A stretch of DNA of 64,000 bases from Natrarchaeobaculum aegyptiacum (lineage in GTDB: Archaea; Halobacteriota; Halobacteria; Halobacteriales; Natrialbaceae): positions 1,922,001 through 1,986,000 of the forward strand of contig NZ_CP019893.1 of the NCBI RefSeq assembly GCF_002156705.1, written 5' to 3'. The notes under the pieces were generated by a model. The model saw nothing but the letters and a program-made list of their open reading frames with translations, was not told where the DNA came from and ran no database searches. How positions within the stretch are numbered: position 1 is the first letter of the stretch; the number at the start of each line of letters is the position of its first letter. A program made the position numbers and the translations under genes. Shown here in pieces: positions 22,713 through 30,444 of the stretch.

Positions 22713-23024
22713 ATGGGGAACGGAGACGAATTACCCGGAACTGCGGTGATAGTCGCGACGGACGACCAGCTCGCCACGACGGTGGACGACGAGACGGTCC
22801 TCTTGCAGACCGATACCGGTACGTACTACGGTTTCAACGAAGTCGCTGCCCGCGTCTGGGACGTCGTTCAGGAAGCCACGACAGTGACCGAAGTCGTCGA
22901 GACCATCCGCGCCGAGTACGACGTCGACGCGTCACAGTGTCGACGCGACGTCGAATCGATCCTCCACGAGATGGAAGCGGCCGACCTCGTTCGGATCGAC
23001 CTCGAGCCGGCGACGGCCGACTGA
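22713..23024 (+). CDS. PqqD-like RiPP recognition element (lasso B1-type)
   Basis: The 103-residue protein is a winged-helix PqqD/RRE domain: DDQLATTVDDETVLLQTDTG, YYGFNEVAARVWDVVQEAT, then DVESILHEMEAADLVRID. In split lasso systems this free-standing domain (B1 or E) binds the precursor leader and presents it to the peptidase and the cyclase. It is the first gene of the operon. It is 12 bases from the B2 gene and has a clear leaderless promoter. The matching leader motif is present in the precursor encoded at 25572. Confidence 0.9.
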   Translation: MGNGDELPGTAVIVATDDQLATTVDDETVLLQTDTGTYYGFNEVAARVWDVVQEATTVTEVVETIRAEYDVDASQCRRDVESILHEMEAADLVRIDLEPATAD

Positions 23025-23036
23025 CACCGTCAGCGT

Positions 23037-23540
23037 ATGGGTCGAGTCGCCGGGTTCCTCGCCGTGTCGGTGGGTGAGAAGTTCCGACTACTCCTCGCTG
23101 CAACCGTGCTCCTGACCGTTCGCGTCGGGATCGTGGTCGGATCGTTCGACCAGTGCAGACGCTGGCTGCTGGTACCGGCCCGACTCCTCTCGGGGATCGT
23201 CCCCGGCTCCCCGTCACCGGTCCGCGTCGCGTGGGCGGTCGACGCGGCCGATCGATCCATTCCGGGCCACCGAACCTGCCTGATGCGCTCGCTCTCGTCG
23301 GAGGTGCTCCACGTTCTCTACGGCCACGACGTGGTCCACCGGATCGGCGTCGACGCGAATCCGCCACCGGACGCTGACCGGCCACGCCGGCCGTCGCGCG
23401 CGGCCATCACACCACCCGCTGGGATCGACTTCGAGGCGCACAGCTGGATCGAGTACGACGGGGAGGTCATCATCGGTCACCTCGAGGACCTCTCCCGGTT
23501 CGAACCGCTGCCGCCGTTGAACGACCACGGGGACCCATGA
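23037..23540 (+). CDS. Lasso peptide B2 protein (transglutaminase-like leader peptidase)
   Basis: The 167-residue protein matches the lasso B2 family. An N-terminal hydrophobic helix (FRLLLAATVLLTVRVGIV) is followed by the Cys of GHRTCLMRSL (C81), the His of FEAHSWIEYDG (H135) and an Asp (D141). These form the papain/transglutaminase-like triad that removes the leader. Spacing and order are those of bacterial B2 proteins, with the leader-binding part supplied by the separate PqqD-like gene upstream. Its 3' end overlaps the cyclase gene by ATGA, so the two are made together. Confidence 0.9.
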   Translation: MGRVAGFLAVSVGEKFRLLLAATVLLTVRVGIVVGSFDQCRRWLLVPARLLSGIVPGSPSPVRVAWAVDAADRSIPGHRTCLMRSLSSEVLHVLYGHDVVHRIGVDANPPPDADRPRRPSRAAITPPAGIDFEAHSWIEYDGEVIIGHLEDLSRFEPLPPLNDHGDP

Positions 23541-25510
23541 GCGGGATCTGTGGGGTCTTCGATCGGGCCGATGGGTCGGTGATGGGCGACGACGTGGCGA
23601 CGGTTCACGCCGAGCTTTCCCACCGTGGCCCGGACGGTGACGGACTCTGGCGAGCCGACCGGGTGGGGCTGGGCCACCACCAACTCGAGACGACGCCGCA
23701 GGCCCGGTTCGACGACCAGCCGATCGTCACCGACGACCTCGTCGTTACCGCTGACGCTCGCCTCGACAACCGCGAGGCGCTGCTCGCCGCCCTTGCCGTT
23801 GCAGCGCCATACGAACGGGTCCCGGACAGCCAGCTCGTCTCGGCGGCCTACCGGCGGTGGGGACCACAGTGCGTCGAGCACCTGCTCGGGTCGTTCGCGT
23901 TCGCCATCTGGGATCGACGGGCGAACCGACTGTTCTGTGCCCGCGACCGCATCGGCGTCAAACCGCTGTACTATCACGCAGGCGACGACGCGTTCGCGTT
24001 CGCCTCCGAACCCGGCTCGCTCCTCACACTCGAGGCCGTCCCGGACGGCATCGACGACCGGCGTATTGGCGACTTCCTCACTGGCCGGCTCGAGGACGAG
24101 CGCGTCTCGTTTTACGAGTCGATCGAACGACTGCCGCCGGCCCACGCGATAATCGTGACTGCCACCGACGCCGATCGCTGGCAGTACTGGGACCTCGACC
24201 CGACGCGGACGATCACGCTCGCCTCGGACGCGGCTTACGAACGCGAGTTCCGCCGGTTGCTCGAGCAGGCCGTTCGCTGTCGGCTGCGCGCGCCAAGCCG
24301 GGATGGCGCGGCCGGTTCCCGGAACACTCGAGTCGAAACCCCACGTCAGGGAGGTGTCGGCACCGAACTGAGCGGTGGACTCGACTCCTCGTCGATTACG
24401 GTACTGGCGAGGGACCTGTTGCCGGACGACGTTTCGCTCCCGACGTTCTCGAACGTCTTCGAGGATGCGCCCTCGAGCGACGAACGGGAGTTCATCGACC
24501 CGATCGCCGATCGCAACGGGATCGTCCCCGAGTACGTCTTCCTCGACGAGCGCGGCGTCCTCACCGATCGAGAGCGCGTCTTCGGGGGCCTCGACGTGCC
24601 GCCGCACAACACCCTTCACTTCGGCGAGTGGACGCTGTTGAACCGTGCATCCGACGCCGGGGTCTCGGTCCTGTTGAACGGGGCCGTCGGGGACAGTGCG
24701 ACCAACTACGGGCTGGGACTGTTACCGCAGTGGTTTCGAACGGGTCGCTGGCGAGCGCTCGCCCGCGAACTCACCGCGATGAGTGAGGTCCTTCGAACCT
24801 CCAGACCGCAGGCGTTCCGTGACCACGTTCTGACGCCGCTGGTTCCACCGCCTGCGAAACGACAGTACCGTCGGTTGCGCGGCGAACCAATTCTCGAGGC
24901 GGCGGCCAACCCGACGCTCGCCGACTCGTTCGTCGACCGGGTCGACCTCCGGAAGCGGTACCGTCGCCTCGATTCGACGTCGGTCCGGAGCCAGACCACC
25001 GATCGCCTGCGCCAGTATCGCTCGCTTCGGTCGGGTCGACACGCGGCGAACCTCGAGGTGCGTGATCACCTCTGTAGCGCGGTCGGCATCGAACCACGGT
25101 ACCCGTTTACCGACGCCCGACTGCTCGAGTTTTCGCTCGCGATCCCACCCACACAACAGTTTTCCGACGGGTACACGCGGTCGATCGTTCGGCGGTCACT
25201 CGACGACCTGTTACCGGCGGTCGTGCAGTGGCGACCCTGGAAGACGATGTTGAACGAAGGCTTCTGGAACGCACTCGCGCGCGAAGACGACGCCCTTCAG
25301 ACACTGATCGCCGACCCCGCGCCCGTCGACGACTACGTCGATCCCGACGCGCTGGCGCGTGCGTACGACCGGTTCGACGCCGACCCGACGTCGACGGACG
25401 CCCGCGCCCTCTGGCGGGCCCTCTCGCTGTCGACCTGGCTCGAGTGCCAGCCAGCGCGGCCATCGACAGCAACCACGGGAACACTCGAGCCAGTGAATAA
25501 TTCCGAATGA
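23537..25510 (+). CDS. Lasso macrolactam synthetase (asparagine synthetase-like, C protein)
   Basis: The 657-residue protein has an N-terminal class II glutaminase-like domain (residues 1 to about 200; SHRGPDGDG, RLDNREALL, FAFAIWDRR, DRIGVKPLYY) and a C-terminal AsnB-type ATP pyrophosphatase domain (ELSGGLDSSS). Canonical AsnB starts MCGI with nucleophile Cys2. Here it is MSGICG, with Ser in that place, so glutamine hydrolysis is unlikely. Lasso cyclases adenylate the acidic side chain at position 7-9 of the core and let the core N-terminus attack it. The gene overlaps B2 by ATGA and is 61 bases before the precursor gene. An ordinary asparagine synthetase is less likely. Confidence 0.88.
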   Translation: MSGICGVFDRADGSVMGDDVATVHAELSHRGPDGDGLWRADRVGLGHHQLETTPQARFDDQPIVTDDLVVTADARLDNREALLAALAVAAPYERVPDSQLVSAAYRRWGPQCVEHLLGSFAFAIWDRRANRLFCARDRIGVKPLYYHAGDDAFAFASEPGSLLTLEAVPDGIDDRRIGDFLTGRLEDERVSFYESIERLPPAHAIIVTATDADRWQYWDLDPTRTITLASDAAYEREFRRLLEQAVRCRLRAPSRDGAAGSRNTRVETPRQGGVGTELSGGLDSSSITVLARDLLPDDVSLPTFSNVFEDAPSSDEREFIDPIADRNGIVPEYVFLDERGVLTDRERVFGGLDVPPHNTLHFGEWTLLNRASDAGVSVLLNGAVGDSATNYGLGLLPQWFRTGRWRALARELTAMSEVLRTSRPQAFRDHVLTPLVPPPAKRQYRRLRGEPILEAAANPTLADSFVDRVDLRKRYRRLDSTSVRSQTTDRLRQYRSLRSGRHAANLEVRDHLCSAVGIEPRYPFTDARLLEFSLAIPPTQQFSDGYTRSIVRRSLDDLLPAVVQWRPWKTMLNEGFWNALAREDDALQTLIADPAPVDDYVDPDALARAYDRFDADPTSTDARALWRALSLSTWLECQPARPSTATTGTLEPVNNSE

Positions 25511-25543
25511 CGCTTCTAGTAATTACACAATAGCTAGATGAAA

Positions 25544-25549
25544 TTTATG
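25544..25549 (+). promoter_or_regulatory. TATA-like box of the lasso precursor
   Basis: TTTATG within AAATTTATGTGG is centred about 26 bp before ATG 25572. The precursor therefore seems to have its own leaderless transcript, separate from or added to read-through from the cyclase operon. This would let the peptide be made in excess of its enzymes. Confidence 0.6.
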
Positions 25550-25571
25550 TGGGTGGGGGTTCAACCATCTG

Positions 25572-25718
25572 ATGATGTCTCAGGACACATCACGCGGATA
25601 CGAACGACCAGAACTGACCGAGTACGGAAGCGTCGAATCGATCACGCAGAACGACAAGATCGGTAACGGGGAAGACCAGTACTCCGGTGCCACGTCGCTG
25701 ACCGGTTCGATCGTCTAG
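25572..25718 (+). CDS. Lasso peptide precursor (A gene)
   Basis: This 48-residue ORF is below common size cut-offs. Its leader has Y10, P13, L15, G19 and T25 in the order YxxPxLxxxGxxxxxT, the pattern bound by PqqD-type recognition elements in lasso systems. With T25 at position -2, the core starts at N27 and runs to V48 (22 residues). E34 is then core position 8 and D35 position 9, so an 8- or 9-residue ring to the N-terminus is possible. Asn as first core residue is unusual, since Gly, Ala, Ser and Cys dominate. Ser and Thr residues near the C-terminus (T41, S42, T44, S46) could be kinase targets. ATG 25572 suits the TATA spacing; ATG 25575 is adjacent. It is placed just after the cyclase. 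Confidence 0.85.
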   Translation: MMSQDTSRGYERPELTEYGSVESITQNDKIGNGEDQYSGATSLTGSIV

Positions 25719-25892: not shown

Positions 25893-26822
25893 TTAGACGG
25901 ACGAGGAGACGGGAGCGAACTCGCGGAGGTCAGCCGCCACTCGTTCGACGAGCGTCGGGAGTTCGTCGTGGCGCTGTGGGCGGGACAGCCGTCGAAACGG
26001 AACCGTCGTCGCGACCTTCGAACAGTGTTCGAGGTTGGTTCCCGTCGCATCGGTCTCCTCGAGCATGCCGCCGGTGTACGTTCTCGAGATGAGTTCGATC
26101 ACGCGGCGCTGGGGATCGACCGGTTCGAGTGAGAGCGTCTCGCCGGTCGTGAGGAGGTAACAGGCTACCAACGGGACCGGCTCGTGACGCGGCTCGAGTT
26201 GCTTGTAGCGTTTCACCGAGTCGGTCCCGTCTTCCGGGCGCGTGGTTCCCTCGATTTCGAGGGCGTCGATGGCGTCGGGTTTGAGTCGCAGTTGCGGAAC
26301 GCCGGGGAGGACGATGGGCCCGTCTTCGCCCGGCTGGATGCCGACGACGTCGTCCTCGAGCGTCGTGTAGCCCGCCGCGTGGAACGCAGCAGCTGTCGTC
26401 GACTTCCCTGCCCCACGCGGGCCGAGGAACACTGCTGCGCGTCCCTCGACGGCGACTGCACTCGCGTGGAGGACGAGCGCTCCTCGCTGGTGACAGAGGA
26501 CGCCCATCATTTCGTTTTCGAAGAGCCGACGGACGACCTTTCGAGGGACGTCACCGGCGGTGATCGAATCGTCTTCGGCGTCGAACGTGACGCGTGAGCC
26601 ATCCTCGACGAGGAACGTTCCGATGCCGTCGTACGTGAGTCGACACTGGGTCGGCGTGGCCTGAATTCGACGCGTACCTTCGCCGGGCACCGAGTCCGGG
26701 ACCGGCTCGAGCTGGCCGTCGTCGATGACCACGTCGGGGGACGGGACGTCGTCTCTCGTCGGTAACTCCGGGAGTTCGAACGCCGACCGAATCGTGAACC
26801 CGTAGGCGGTATACCGAAACAT
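25893..26822 (-). CDS. HPr kinase-like protein of the lasso cluster
   Basis: The 309-residue protein has a Walker A loop GPRGAGKST (residues 134-142). The preceding LHASAVAVEG strand and the following TLEDDVVGI acidic pair (D157, D158) match HPr kinase/phosphorylase folds. There is no PTS HPr gene nearby. In bacterial lasso clusters such kinases phosphorylate a Ser at or near the precursor C-terminus. Here the precursor ends GSIV with no terminal Ser, so the target could be S46 or another Ser/Thr, or the enzyme may act otherwise. A TATA-like CTAAATAG (26842-26849, minus strand) about 24 bp before the ATG gives it its own leaderless start. It is convergent with the precursor. Confidence 0.82.
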   Translation of the reverse strand: MFRYTAYGFTIRSAFELPELPTRDDVPSPDVVIDDGQLEPVPDSVPGEGTRRIQATPTQCRLTYDGIGTFLVEDGSRVTFDAEDDSITAGDVPRKVVRRLFENEMMGVLCHQRGALVLHASAVAVEGRAAVFLGPRGAGKSTTAAAFHAAGYTTLEDDVVGIQPGEDGPIVLPGVPQLRLKPDAIDALEIEGTTRPEDGTDSVKRYKQLEPRHEPVPLVACYLLTTGETLSLEPVDPQRRVIELISRTYTGGMLEETDATGTNLEHCSKVATTVPFRRLSRPQRHDELPTLVERVAADLREFAPVSSSV

Positions 26823-26952: not shown

Positions 26953-28767
26953 TCACGGCGACGGCTGACTCGACTCGAGTTGTGAGTCGTACAGCTGGGC
27001 GTACGCCGAGTCCTCACTCAGGAGGTCTGTGTGAGTCCCCGATTCGACGATTTCGCCGTCGACGACGGTGTAGATGCGATCGGCATCGCTGACGGTCGAG
27101 AGCCAGTGGCCGATGACGACCGTCGCGTACTCGCGATCCATCTCGTCGATGGCCTCGAGGATCGCCGCCTCGGTCGGCGAGTCGAGTTCGCTCGTGGCCT
27201 CGTCGAGGATCAAGACGTCGGCGTCTGCAAGCAACGCCCGTGCGATGGCGATACGCTGGCGTTGCCCGCCCGAGAGGCGCACGCCGTCGTCACCGAGTTC
27301 GGTGTCGAGGCCCTCGGGTAACTCATCGAGAAACGTCGACACCTGGCTGCGCTCGCAGGCTCGCTCGATGGCCGCCTCGTCGGCGCTCGGATCGCCGATC
27401 GTGACGTTCTCCCGGAGGGTACCGGTGAACAGGAACGGCTGCTGGGGAACGACGGTGACACGCTCGTGCCACTCGTGGCGGTCGAGTCGCTCGAGGGGAA
27501 CGCCGTCGACGGTGATTTGACCCCGGTCTGGTTCGTAGAGTCGTGCCAGCAAGGAGACGATCGTGGACTTGCCGGCGCCGGAGGGACCGACCAGCGCGAT
27601 CGTCTCGCCGCGATCGACGGTGAGCGAAACGTTCCGTACGTCGGTTCGATCCGCGTCGTCGTCGTAGCGAAAACACACGTCCTCGAACTCGACGGCTGTC
27701 CGGTCGGGAACTGGCTCCCCACTGGTGGGCCGGGTGTGTTCGCCGAATTCCTCGATGAGCGCCTGTGCCCGGACGAGGTGTGGCAGCGTGCCGTCGATCG
27801 AGTACAGGGTGTTGTTGAGTGCGCTGATCAGCGGTGAGAGTCGATAGATCGCGAACAGGAACGTCCCCAGGGTTGCAAAGTCAAGCGCCAGATACTGGAT
27901 GGCGACGTAGACGAGGCCGAAGACGACGAACGCGTTGAGCAACTGGTTGAAACTGCCGAGAGCGACGTGGTTTCGCTCGAGCCTGACGCGCGTCTCGACC
28001 AGTCGATCGTGAGCCCGGTCGAACTGGTCGGCGAGATCAGATTGCATAGTGAACAGCCTGATCTCGCGAGTTCCCTGCGTCGCAGCGTTGATCAGTGACT
28101 GGATCTCCTCGTTGGCCGTCGCGACGCCGTCGCCGACGTCGTATCCCGAATCGAGGCCGAACCGGGTGAGAACTACCACGAACCCGAGCACGACGATCGT
28201 CGCGATCGTCAGCGCGGGCGACAGGACGATCGCGATCGTCGCGTACACACCCGCGAACAGCACTTTCTCGACGGCGCTGAGGACGTCACCGACGACCCGA
28301 CCGGCAGCACGGGTTTCCGTGACGACGGTGTTGACGACCTCGTCGCCATCCTGCCGGTCGACGTACGCCACGTCAGCGGCGAGCAACGCCTCGTACGACC
28401 GACGGCGGAGCGCCGCCATGTACGTCGTCGTGAGCGATGCCTGAAGCCAGCCGATCAGGAAACTCACGCTGTACCGGATGGTCATCACGATGGCGAGCCC
28501 GAGGATCAACGTCTCGAGCGTGGCGGGAATTCCAAGCGCGTCGTATGCCCGAACGAAGACCGCAGCGATCGGTGATGCGTCTTCGCCGAGTCCGTCGCTG
28601 GTCATCGCGAGTTCGATGATCGGAAGCAAGAACGTGAGTCCGATCCCCTCGAACACGGCCGCGAAGAGTTTCAACACCAGAATCGCCGCCGCCAGCGCCG
28701 GCCGGTGTCCCATCGCTCGCCGGAGCGCCTCGAGTTTCTCGGCGAGTGTCGGCTCGCGGTCGATCAT
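26953..28767 (-). CDS. ABC exporter, fused membrane and ATPase domains (lasso D type)
   Basis: The 604-residue half-transporter has about six membrane helices in residues 20-330, then the nucleotide-binding domain. That domain has Walker A GPSGAGKST (394-402), Q-loop VVPQQP, signature LSGGQ (498-502), Walker B VLILDE (518-523) and an H-loop His in VVIGHW. It has no N-terminal C39 peptidase, as expected because leader removal is done by B2. It most likely exports the mature lasso peptide and gives self-immunity. It lies 99 bases downstream of the nucleotidyltransferase gene on the same strand, with no clear promoter in the gap, so co-transcription is likely. Confidence 0.9.
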   Translation of the reverse strand: MIDREPTLAEKLEALRRAMGHRPALAAAILVLKLFAAVFEGIGLTFLLPIIELAMTSDGLGEDASPIAAVFVRAYDALGIPATLETLILGLAIVMTIRYSVSFLIGWLQASLTTTYMAALRRRSYEALLAADVAYVDRQDGDEVVNTVVTETRAAGRVVGDVLSAVEKVLFAGVYATIAIVLSPALTIATIVVLGFVVVLTRFGLDSGYDVGDGVATANEEIQSLINAATQGTREIRLFTMQSDLADQFDRAHDRLVETRVRLERNHVALGSFNQLLNAFVVFGLVYVAIQYLALDFATLGTFLFAIYRLSPLISALNNTLYSIDGTLPHLVRAQALIEEFGEHTRPTSGEPVPDRTAVEFEDVCFRYDDDADRTDVRNVSLTVDRGETIALVGPSGAGKSTIVSLLARLYEPDRGQITVDGVPLERLDRHEWHERVTVVPQQPFLFTGTLRENVTIGDPSADEAAIERACERSQVSTFLDELPEGLDTELGDDGVRLSGGQRQRIAIARALLADADVLILDEATSELDSPTEAAILEAIDEMDREYATVVIGHWLSTVSDADRIYTVVDGEIVESGTHTDLLSEDSAYAQLYDSQLESSQPSP

Positions 28768-28866: not shown

Positions 28867-30138
28867 TCACCGTCCCTCCGCCTGCGGGTGGTCGCTCGTT
28901 CGGACGCCATTGCAAAGCGCCCCCGTCGCGATTCGAACCGGCCTGACGACGCCGTACAGTGGCGCGAGCGGTCGGGGGAGTGCGATCGCCTCCACGTCGG
29001 ACCGGTTGGGCTTGAACAGCCAGTTCGCCCAGAACGCGACTCGATCGCGAGTGCGATCGAGTGTCCGCGCCTGGAACCGCCGTTCCTCGAACTCCCGATA
29101 GGGACGATCCGTGAAGAGCCGATCCTCGACTGCCGCGAGCAGCCCCTCGAGTGTCTGGTCTGTCGCAATCTGTCGACGAACGCGATCGGGCACCGACACG
29201 TCGTAGAGCCAGTCAGTCACGGCGAGTCCGAGCAAGAACAGTCGACGGCAGTCGTGTCTTTGCGCGCGCTCGAGGATTGCGTCCCAGTCGACGGGCTGGT
29301 TCTCGAGTGCGACGGCGACGTCGTAACTCCAGTGGAGCCGCTCCCACCGGTGACGACTTCCGTGAATACAACAGGCGAGTAGCCGATCTTCCGGGGAAAA
29401 CACCGGGACCTCGGTACCGGCGACGGTCGTCGTCGACCGTCGATCCCACAGGCACTCGAGGTCGAATTCGGTCGGAAAGTGCCTCGAGAGGACTCGCCAG
29501 TGGAGTTCGACCTCGAGGTCGTCTCGCTCACGGTAAAACGTGTACTCGCGTTCGACGCGCCGGTAGGCCCACTCCTGAGTCGGCGTCAGTTCCGTCACCG
29601 AATCGTCGAGGTAGACTGGTTCGAATCCCAGTCCCTCGAGGATCGACTTGATCGCCGGGATGTCCTCGCGCGCGACGAGCACGTCTACGTCGCGAAACTC
29701 TCGACACCCGACGTCGCCGTAGAGGTGGCTGGCGATGACGGGGCCGCGATACGGAATCGCCCGGATCCCCTCGGACTGGAGCGTCGACGACAGGTTCGCG
29801 ACCGCCCCGAGGAGGCGAAGGTTTCGCCGCGCGACGAACTGGGATCGTTCTCGAAACGTCTCGAGCACTTCCGTGGGGACCTGAGGAGCTTCCATCGTCG
29901 TTTCGGTCGTCTGCCCCGTTTTGCACCCTGGTCCCGTCTCCAGGGCCGATTCGGCCTGATCCGTGACATCCTGTAGTGCTTCGTACACCAGTGGTGAGAC
30001 CGTGTGCCGGGTCGCACCATCGAGAACGCCGTCCCAGTCGACCGACTCGAAGTCGGTCGTCTCGAGGCTCGAATCGTGTATTCCCGCTCGAAGACACTGG
30101 ACGACGAACTGCGTCTCTGTCGTGCACCCTTCCCCCAT
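28867..30138 (-). CDS. PF14907-type nucleotidyltransferase of the lasso cluster
   Basis: The protein matches the uncharacterised nucleotidyltransferase family PF14907. It has IPYRGPVIASHLYGDVGCRE, then FRDVDVLVARED with the D-x-D metal pair, then VELHWRVLSRHF, HGSRHRWERLHWSYD and a helical C-terminus. Members of this family recur in lasso clusters of bacteria, where their role is unclear; acyl or nucleotidyl tailoring has been suggested. The start at 30138 (MGEGCTTETQ) is chosen because a TATA-like TTTTATTA (30165-30172, minus strand) lies 30 bp before it. An upstream in-frame ATG at 30177 lies on the far side of that box. The length is 423 residues. Confidence 0.82.
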   Translation of the reverse strand: MGEGCTTETQFVVQCLRAGIHDSSLETTDFESVDWDGVLDGATRHTVSPLVYEALQDVTDQAESALETGPGCKTGQTTETTMEAPQVPTEVLETFRERSQFVARRNLRLLGAVANLSSTLQSEGIRAIPYRGPVIASHLYGDVGCREFRDVDVLVAREDIPAIKSILEGLGFEPVYLDDSVTELTPTQEWAYRRVEREYTFYRERDDLEVELHWRVLSRHFPTEFDLECLWDRRSTTTVAGTEVPVFSPEDRLLACCIHGSRHRWERLHWSYDVAVALENQPVDWDAILERAQRHDCRRLFLLGLAVTDWLYDVSVPDRVRRQIATDQTLEGLLAAVEDRLFTDRPYREFEERRFQARTLDRTRDRVAFWANWLFKPNRSDVEAIALPRPLAPLYGVVRPVRIATGALCNGVRTSDHPQAEGR

Positions 30139-30444
30139 TCTATCGATATTCTCAGGGTGGTGGATAATAAAATTCACTATGATTGGCTTGGTACTTTCGT
30201 CCTGGTGGCCGCTCGACTGCCAGAACTCACAGGCTCCAGCATCGGTGGGCAGCGCTCAGAACACTCCACTGCTATTATGGGGACTGGATAGCAAATAATT
30301 AAGGTGGATAACGAGAGAATCAATCGTATCGTCGATCCGAACGTGCGTTCTGGAAACCACCGCCACAGTTCGCTGGCAGGCCGATTCCGGCTCGAGCACG
30401 TGCGACCGACGGATCGACAGCGAGCCCCTGACGCCTGATCACCT
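30139..30444. other. Divergent intergenic region right of the lasso cluster
   Basis: These 306 bases hold the nucleotidyltransferase promoter (30165-30172) and a rightward AT-rich box (GCAAATAATTAAGG, about 30290-30303). The latter lies about 140 bases before the next gene, so that gene may have a long leader. No ORF or second precursor is convincing in either direction. Confidence 0.5.

Follow-up and report, generated by a model that had tools for sequence, protein, structure and literature searches.

What defines a lasso peptide is a bond between the N-terminal amine of the core and an acid at position 7-9, and it is this arrangement that genome-mining tools look for. A small open reading frame of the haloarchaeon Natrarchaeobaculum aegyptiacum raises the question of which amine and which acid close the ring when the core appears to begin with Asn, offers two adjacent acids and carries a Lys close to its N-terminus. 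The stretch of DNA that was analysed, referred to here as the window, is 64,000 nucleotides long, and the precursor gene and its neighbours lie at the following window positions.

22713..23024, + strand: B1, PqqD-like RiPP recognition element (PF05402, 5.7e-20; TbiB1, PDB 5V1U, 1.3e-13)
23037..23540, + strand: B2, leader peptidase (NF033537, 1.7e-19, above cut-off; Cys81/His135/Glu139 motifs kept)
23537..25510, + strand: C, asparagine-synthetase-like lasso cyclase (NF033535, 3.8e-174, above cut-off; PF00733)
25572..25718, + strand: A, precursor peptide, open reading frame of 48 amino acids, MMSQDTSRGYERPELTEYGSVESITQNDKIGNGEDQYSGATSLTGSIV
25599..25649, + strand: leader part Tyr10-Gln26 (Y-x2-P-x-L-x3-G-x5-T-x), with Y10, P13, G19 and T25 invariant in 20 homologues
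25650..25715, + strand: predicted core Asn27-Val48, given cleavage after T25-Q26 (T(-2) rule; shared B2 in three genomes)
25656..25676, + strand: K-I-G-N-G-E-D, Lys29-Asp35, proposed ring unit (invariant K and D, spacing 6)
25704..25709, + strand: Gly45-Ser46 near the C-terminus, putative kinase target (Gly invariant)
25893..26822, - strand: K, HprK-like kinase of the kind known from phosphorylated lasso clusters (P-loop GPRGAGKST)
26953..28767, - strand: D, ABC exporter (PF00005, PF00664)
28867..30177, - strand: N, nucleotidyltransferase of lasso clusters (PF14907, 5.6e-62)

B1, B2 and C thus precede the precursor on the + strand, and the kinase, the ABC exporter and the NTP_transf_5 protein follow on the - strand; as predicted from their sequences, these genes are a full lasso-type set of B1, B2, cyclase, kinase, ABC exporter and nucleotidyltransferase. 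B1 is the sole PqqD-family match in the genome and also matches NF033536 (4.5e-19), yet it stays under the cut-off of that model. In B2, Cys81, His135 and Glu139 are kept in 33/34 aligned rows, the odd one (L263) apparently being a mis-extracted frame. In the cyclase, which has a PP-loop reading SGGLDSSS, the glutaminase Cys2 is replaced by Ser2; its predicted model (mean pLDDT 73, moderate confidence) matches TsnB9 and the asparagine and beta-lactam synthetases. The kinase, a gene also found in homologous clusters, matches TIGR04352 over a partial stretch and under cut-off (1.2e-9). An ATP-grasp domain, the macrocyclase domain of graspetide clusters, was not detected in any of the nine proteins scanned from the cluster and its flanks.

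The precursor gene lies 61 bases beyond the cyclase gene. Its product scores 23.3 bits against the NCBIfam lasso-leader model NF033521, above the cut-off of 19, and nowhere else in the 3.93 Mb genome does that model score over its cut-off; against NF033528 (lasso_cyano) it reaches 24.0 bits, under the cut-off of 33, in a match limited to the leader. An earlier note, made from the letters of the window, had proposed a lasso-type precursor with a leader bound by the recognition element. The NF033521 match, together with a PqqD-like B1 and an intact-looking B2 in the cluster, bears this out, and the predicted open reading frame is confirmed as a genuine lasso-type precursor, beyond chance. The YxxPxL motif and its Thr are present and conserved, with Y10, P13, L15, G19 and T25 located in the translation where the note had placed them. 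Its count of the core is likewise reproduced: with T25 at -2, a position that depends on the inferred cleavage site, the product would be a 22-mer running N1 D2 K3 I4 G5 N6 G7 E8 D9 with a 13-residue tail, and the acids at 7-9 are E8 and D9. The precursor alignment had no matches when searched against viral contigs. Scans for bacterial-type promoters and terminators around the gene came back empty, as expected for an archaeal host; an A/T-rich AAATTTATG at 25541-25572, about 25 bases upstream of the first ATG, would fit an archaeal TATA box with a leaderless precursor transcript.

The choice between E8 and D9, which the earlier note had left ambiguous and had proposed to settle by aligning homologues, is decided by such an alignment. 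A protein search found precursor matches in 16 of the 391 genomes of the class, spread over 13 genera, and in the larger regions the majority of homologues adjoin lasso cyclases and are accompanied by the accessory genes seen in the window. Across 20 aligned haloarchaeal precursors, Y10, P13, G19, T25, K29, D35 and G45 never vary. The residue preceding the Asp (Glu34 in the window) may be E, D, S, T, P, V or M, and the residue after T-x (Asn27) may be N, Q, S, T, R, K, G or A. Since Lys29 and Asp35 are invariant while Asn27 and Glu34 vary, Asp35, at core position 9, is the likely ring acid, and the unconserved Glu34 was ruled out as ring partner. The idea that Asn is the defining nucleophile is not supported by this comparison either: the close homologue L004, 63% identical, has a Ser-initiated core, an outcome that the note had itself named as telling against its proposal. 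What the note had not picked up is the pair of invariant features on which the present argument turns, namely Lys29 and its fixed spacing to Asp35. Lys makes up only about 0.9% of residues in the host (10 window proteins), yet Lys29 is invariant.

The distance between the leader and this Lys is far from fixed. It ranges from TQ/ND-K in the window (the slash marking the end of T-x) through TQ/NQN-K, TE/QVN-K and TE/QQYN-K to TE/GSGTN-K and TE/TGSGNN-K. The K-to-D distance is nevertheless 6 in every haloarchaeal homologue, with Gly at K+2 in all except L064, and the Asp therefore falls at 9, 10, 11, 12 or 13 counted from T-x. For 12 of these precursors the T(-2) rule places it at 10-13, and all but one of the 12 lack any acid at 7-9. 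Towards the C-terminus, Ser46 is replaced by Asp in both precursors of one genome (L058 8427-8663 and 4118-4336), and the resulting Gly-Asp may be a phosphomimetic substitution at the putative kinase target. On the plasmid pHALXA01 of Halopiger xanaduensis (L063/L093) a precursor of this kind sits directly behind the cyclase and is missing from the gene table; that table is itself incomplete, and genes this short are easily missed.

The reading favoured here, to which we give a probability of roughly 0.45, is that the window precursor belongs to a distinct ‘K class’ of lasso-type RiPPs with an isopeptide ring between the Lys29 side chain and Asp35 and an exocyclic N-terminus. B1 would bind the YxxPxL leader, B2 would cleave after T25-Q26, and the cyclase would adenylate Asp35, the attacking nucleophile most probably being the side-chain amine of Lys29 and not the N-terminal amine. 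The resulting ring would contain 26 atoms, as many as a Glu-closed lasso ring of 8 residues, and by the same arithmetic every K-class member, joined from Lys to the Asp at i+6, would have 26 ring atoms. A short overhang, Asn27-Asp28 in the window, would lie outside the ring, while the tail may thread, the kinase may then phosphorylate a tail Ser, and the ABC protein would export the product. Such a ring would explain why the Lys is invariant and its spacing to the Asp fixed, why the N-terminal segment, as an overhang, is free to vary in length, and why Gly, Ala, Ser and Cys are scarce at position 1, as described below. We know of no lasso cyclase for which use of a Lys side chain has been demonstrated, and Lys29 could instead be a recognition residue.

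An ordinary lasso, in which B2 cuts after T25-Q26 and the Asn27 alpha-amine attacks Asp35, is unlikely but carries the most weight of the alternatives. Because the window spacer is only 2, it would give a normal ring of 9 residues and a threaded tail of 13, and Lys29 would be kept for another reason, such as recognition or activity. D9 is the commonest ring position in canonical relatives (29/57), T25 is invariant in the 20 homologues, and in further cyanobacterial relatives D8/D9 is combined with V, I, F, T, Q or N as the first core residue. The earlier note had called Asn rare as a nucleophile; Asn1 has been shown by mass spectrometry in metanodin (PMC12670498) and is no longer unprecedented. 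The difficulty lies with the homologues. With cleavage held at T-x, alpha-amine rings would range from 9 to 15 residues, so that K-x5-D precursors with close cyclases would need rings of 10-13 residues in haloarchaea, with 13 in Halosimplex L095, whose spacer is 6, and up to 15 in bacteria; published lasso peptides have the acid at 7-9 (PMC10368454), and a ring larger or smaller by a single residue is reported to lower the yield, such changes being poorly tolerated (PMC13352647). An alpha-amine isopeptide is indirectly disfavoured for the long-spacer homologues, and the invariant Lys is left without explanation.

The Lys-anchored reading draws further support from bacteria. A cyclase-alignment scan with one genome per species yielded 80 loci. 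Many of those found through the cyclase in bacteria carry ordinary precursors with the acid at 8 or 9 (GGGGSTAID in Mesorhizobium; VAGRNLTKD in cyanobacteria), and a separate bacterial group has K-x2-G-x2-D, with a K-D spacing of 6, spacers of 2 to 8 and Gly at K+3. K-x5-D enclosing a Gly is found again in cyanobacteria (Leptolyngbya QT-KTIGFKD; Pleurocapsa QVTVG-KIPGSGD), Chloroflexi (QIKN-KTTGGSD), Acidobacteria (EGSIPD-KVYGSSD), Rokubacteria (DQN-KKLGLSD) and Desulfobacterota. A few more bacterial K-class precursors were added by additional searches; at an Antarctobacter plasmid match the pattern found none. One acidobacterial precursor (L102 7019-7264) has Lys right after T-x (TQ/KVGTSTAD) and a K-D spacing of 7, an apparent canonical Lys1-Asp8 ring.

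The association between K-x5-D and the lack of an acid at the usual position was assessed in 98 different precursors encoded no more than 2.5 kb from a cyclase. K-x5-D occurs in 23/26 precursors without an acid at 7-9 and in 18/72 with one (p=1.6e-8, a value that overstates independence because the sequences share ancestry), and in those 23 the Asp lies at 10-15 counted from T-x. Shuffled cores gave a mean of 2.5 and a maximum of 10 with K-x5-D over 20,000 runs, and among spacings of 2-11 there is a strong excess at 6 only. At bacterial loci found via the cyclase alone the proportions are 8/9 without and 4/49 with an acid at 7-9 (p=2e-6, subject to the same shared ancestry). Although none of the 41 K-class precursors departs from a spacing of 6, this constancy partly follows from the definition of the class, and some rows were obtained with K-class queries; weight is therefore placed on the shuffles and the cyclase-only loci. 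The spacer between T-x and Lys is 2 to 8 residues long, most often 2 (17/41), and lengths of 0 and 1 were never seen. Position 1 is Gln or Asn in 26/41 K-class cores against 2/57 others, and Gly, Ala, Ser or Cys in 4/41 against 44/57, so that the usual N-terminal nucleophiles are mostly absent from K-class position 1. That a ring from a Lys side chain to the Asp at i+6, with the N-terminus free, is common to haloarchaea and at least five bacterial phyla is put at a little under an even chance.

In the cyclase tree, the K class comprises a haloarchaeal clade (16/16, support 100) and a bacterial clade (10/10, support 98), plus four single lineages beyond them, two haloarchaeal G-type cyclases being labelled K through gene proximity only. 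The K-class tree requires no fewer than 12 changes of spacer length. No cyclase residues were found that separate both K clades from canonical cyclases, the only candidates being weak positions 547, 550 and 522, and no active-site signature specific to the K class emerged.

Constant rings of known sizes could also arise if B2 or a second protease cut at a variable distance after the Thr, with the ring always starting beside the Lys: at the residue before it (Asp28 in the window, giving the 8-residue DKIGNGED) or at the Lys itself, for a 7-residue ring. This would account for the fixed K-D spacing, and in haloarchaea N or D usually precedes the Lys. That position is unconserved in bacteria, however (N, D, T, G, Q, L, A, R or P), the exact leader spacing of the Thr is retained, and in long-spacer rows Gln or Asn is found after T-x in 11/24 against 4/24 at K-2 (p=0.06). 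Against it there are also three genomes (G344, G103 and G1254), each with one locus in which K-class precursors and a K-clade cyclase accompany a canonical precursor and a sister-clade cyclase. The canonical precursors (GRHFSRVD, GNHFSAVD and GQHFSRVD, or GxHFSxVD, Gly1-Asp8), apparently with a kinase of their own, share one B1 in the cluster and one B2 genome-wide with the K-class precursors, so this sole B2 also serves T-x/G precursors. As there is a single B1/B2 but two cyclases, the simplest reading is that both precursor types would be cut at the same T-x site and would diverge at cyclisation, which makes shifted cleavage improbable. Three loci (L059, L065 and L249) contain HprK-like kinases of different kinds, one 54-60% and the other 30-34% identical to the window kinase, apparently one per precursor type.

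Haloarchaea also have related clusters with kinase, B1 and B2 and no detected cyclase homologue, and these lend something to the view that the product contains no macrolactam at all, the leader being cut, the peptide phosphorylated or otherwise modified, and the cyclase homologue doing other chemistry. Such a product is very improbable for the window, where the cyclase is above the lasso-cyclase model cut-off and K-class precursors retain the Asp at fixed spacing. The clusters in question (L066, L067, L069, L070, L073-L075 and L077-L079 of genus g33, together with L057, L072 and L076) have B1, B2, kinase and nucleotidyltransferase, and mostly an ABC exporter; no cyclase homologue was detected in the 19 kb covered. 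They encode very short leader-bearing peptides, for example MKEYETPSVETYGTVEEKTNWWDHDDGYGKWS; L057 has six paralogues with GSEP-like tails, and in L072 (12019-12177) the core is almost pure glycine. Possibly they make non-lasso RiPPs using lasso leader processing.

If the Lys-anchored ring is real, it would break the lasso definition and account for precursors missed by mining rules. It would amount to a new way of building knotted peptides by lasso-type cyclases not limited to the alpha-amine, in a distinct archaeal branch of the family, and the enzyme, installing side-chain to side-chain lactams while leaving the N-terminus free, would be useful for peptide engineering. Neither a lasso ring anchored on Lys nor this class of haloarchaeal precursors was found described in the open-licence literature searched.

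Among known systems, macrolactam-type graspetides have the same Lys to Asp/Glu side-chain lactam as proposed here, but are made by ATP-grasp ligases, of which none was detected in the window cluster. Lariocidin B resembles the proposal in having a Lys side chain in a lasso-peptide isopeptide bond, there as a second bond, from Lys2 to the C-terminal Arg, with isoforms tied to the clostripain-family peptidase LrcF (PMC11451635); in the open-licence literature searched this was the only such use of Lys found. Phosphorylated lasso clusters of the paeninodin type (BsfA, PMC10368454) share the HPr-kinase-like gene, whereas the window cluster is haloarchaeal and its candidate Ser, a possible phosphorylation site, belongs to a GS motif close to the C-terminus. 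Metanodin, whose Asn1-to-acid ring is supported by mass spectrometry (PMC12670498), is like the window precursor, as described, in having Asn directly after T-x as core position 1, so that Asn1 alone is no longer a first. The canonical class II lasso with split B1/B2 (TbiB1 type) has in common with the window the leader YxxPxL...T, the PqqD-like B1, the Transglut_core3 B2, the asparagine-synthetase-like cyclase and the ABC exporter. The K class differs from it in an invariant Lys six residues ahead of the predicted ring Asp, a Gln/Asn-rich position 1 and an N-terminal spacer of variable length.
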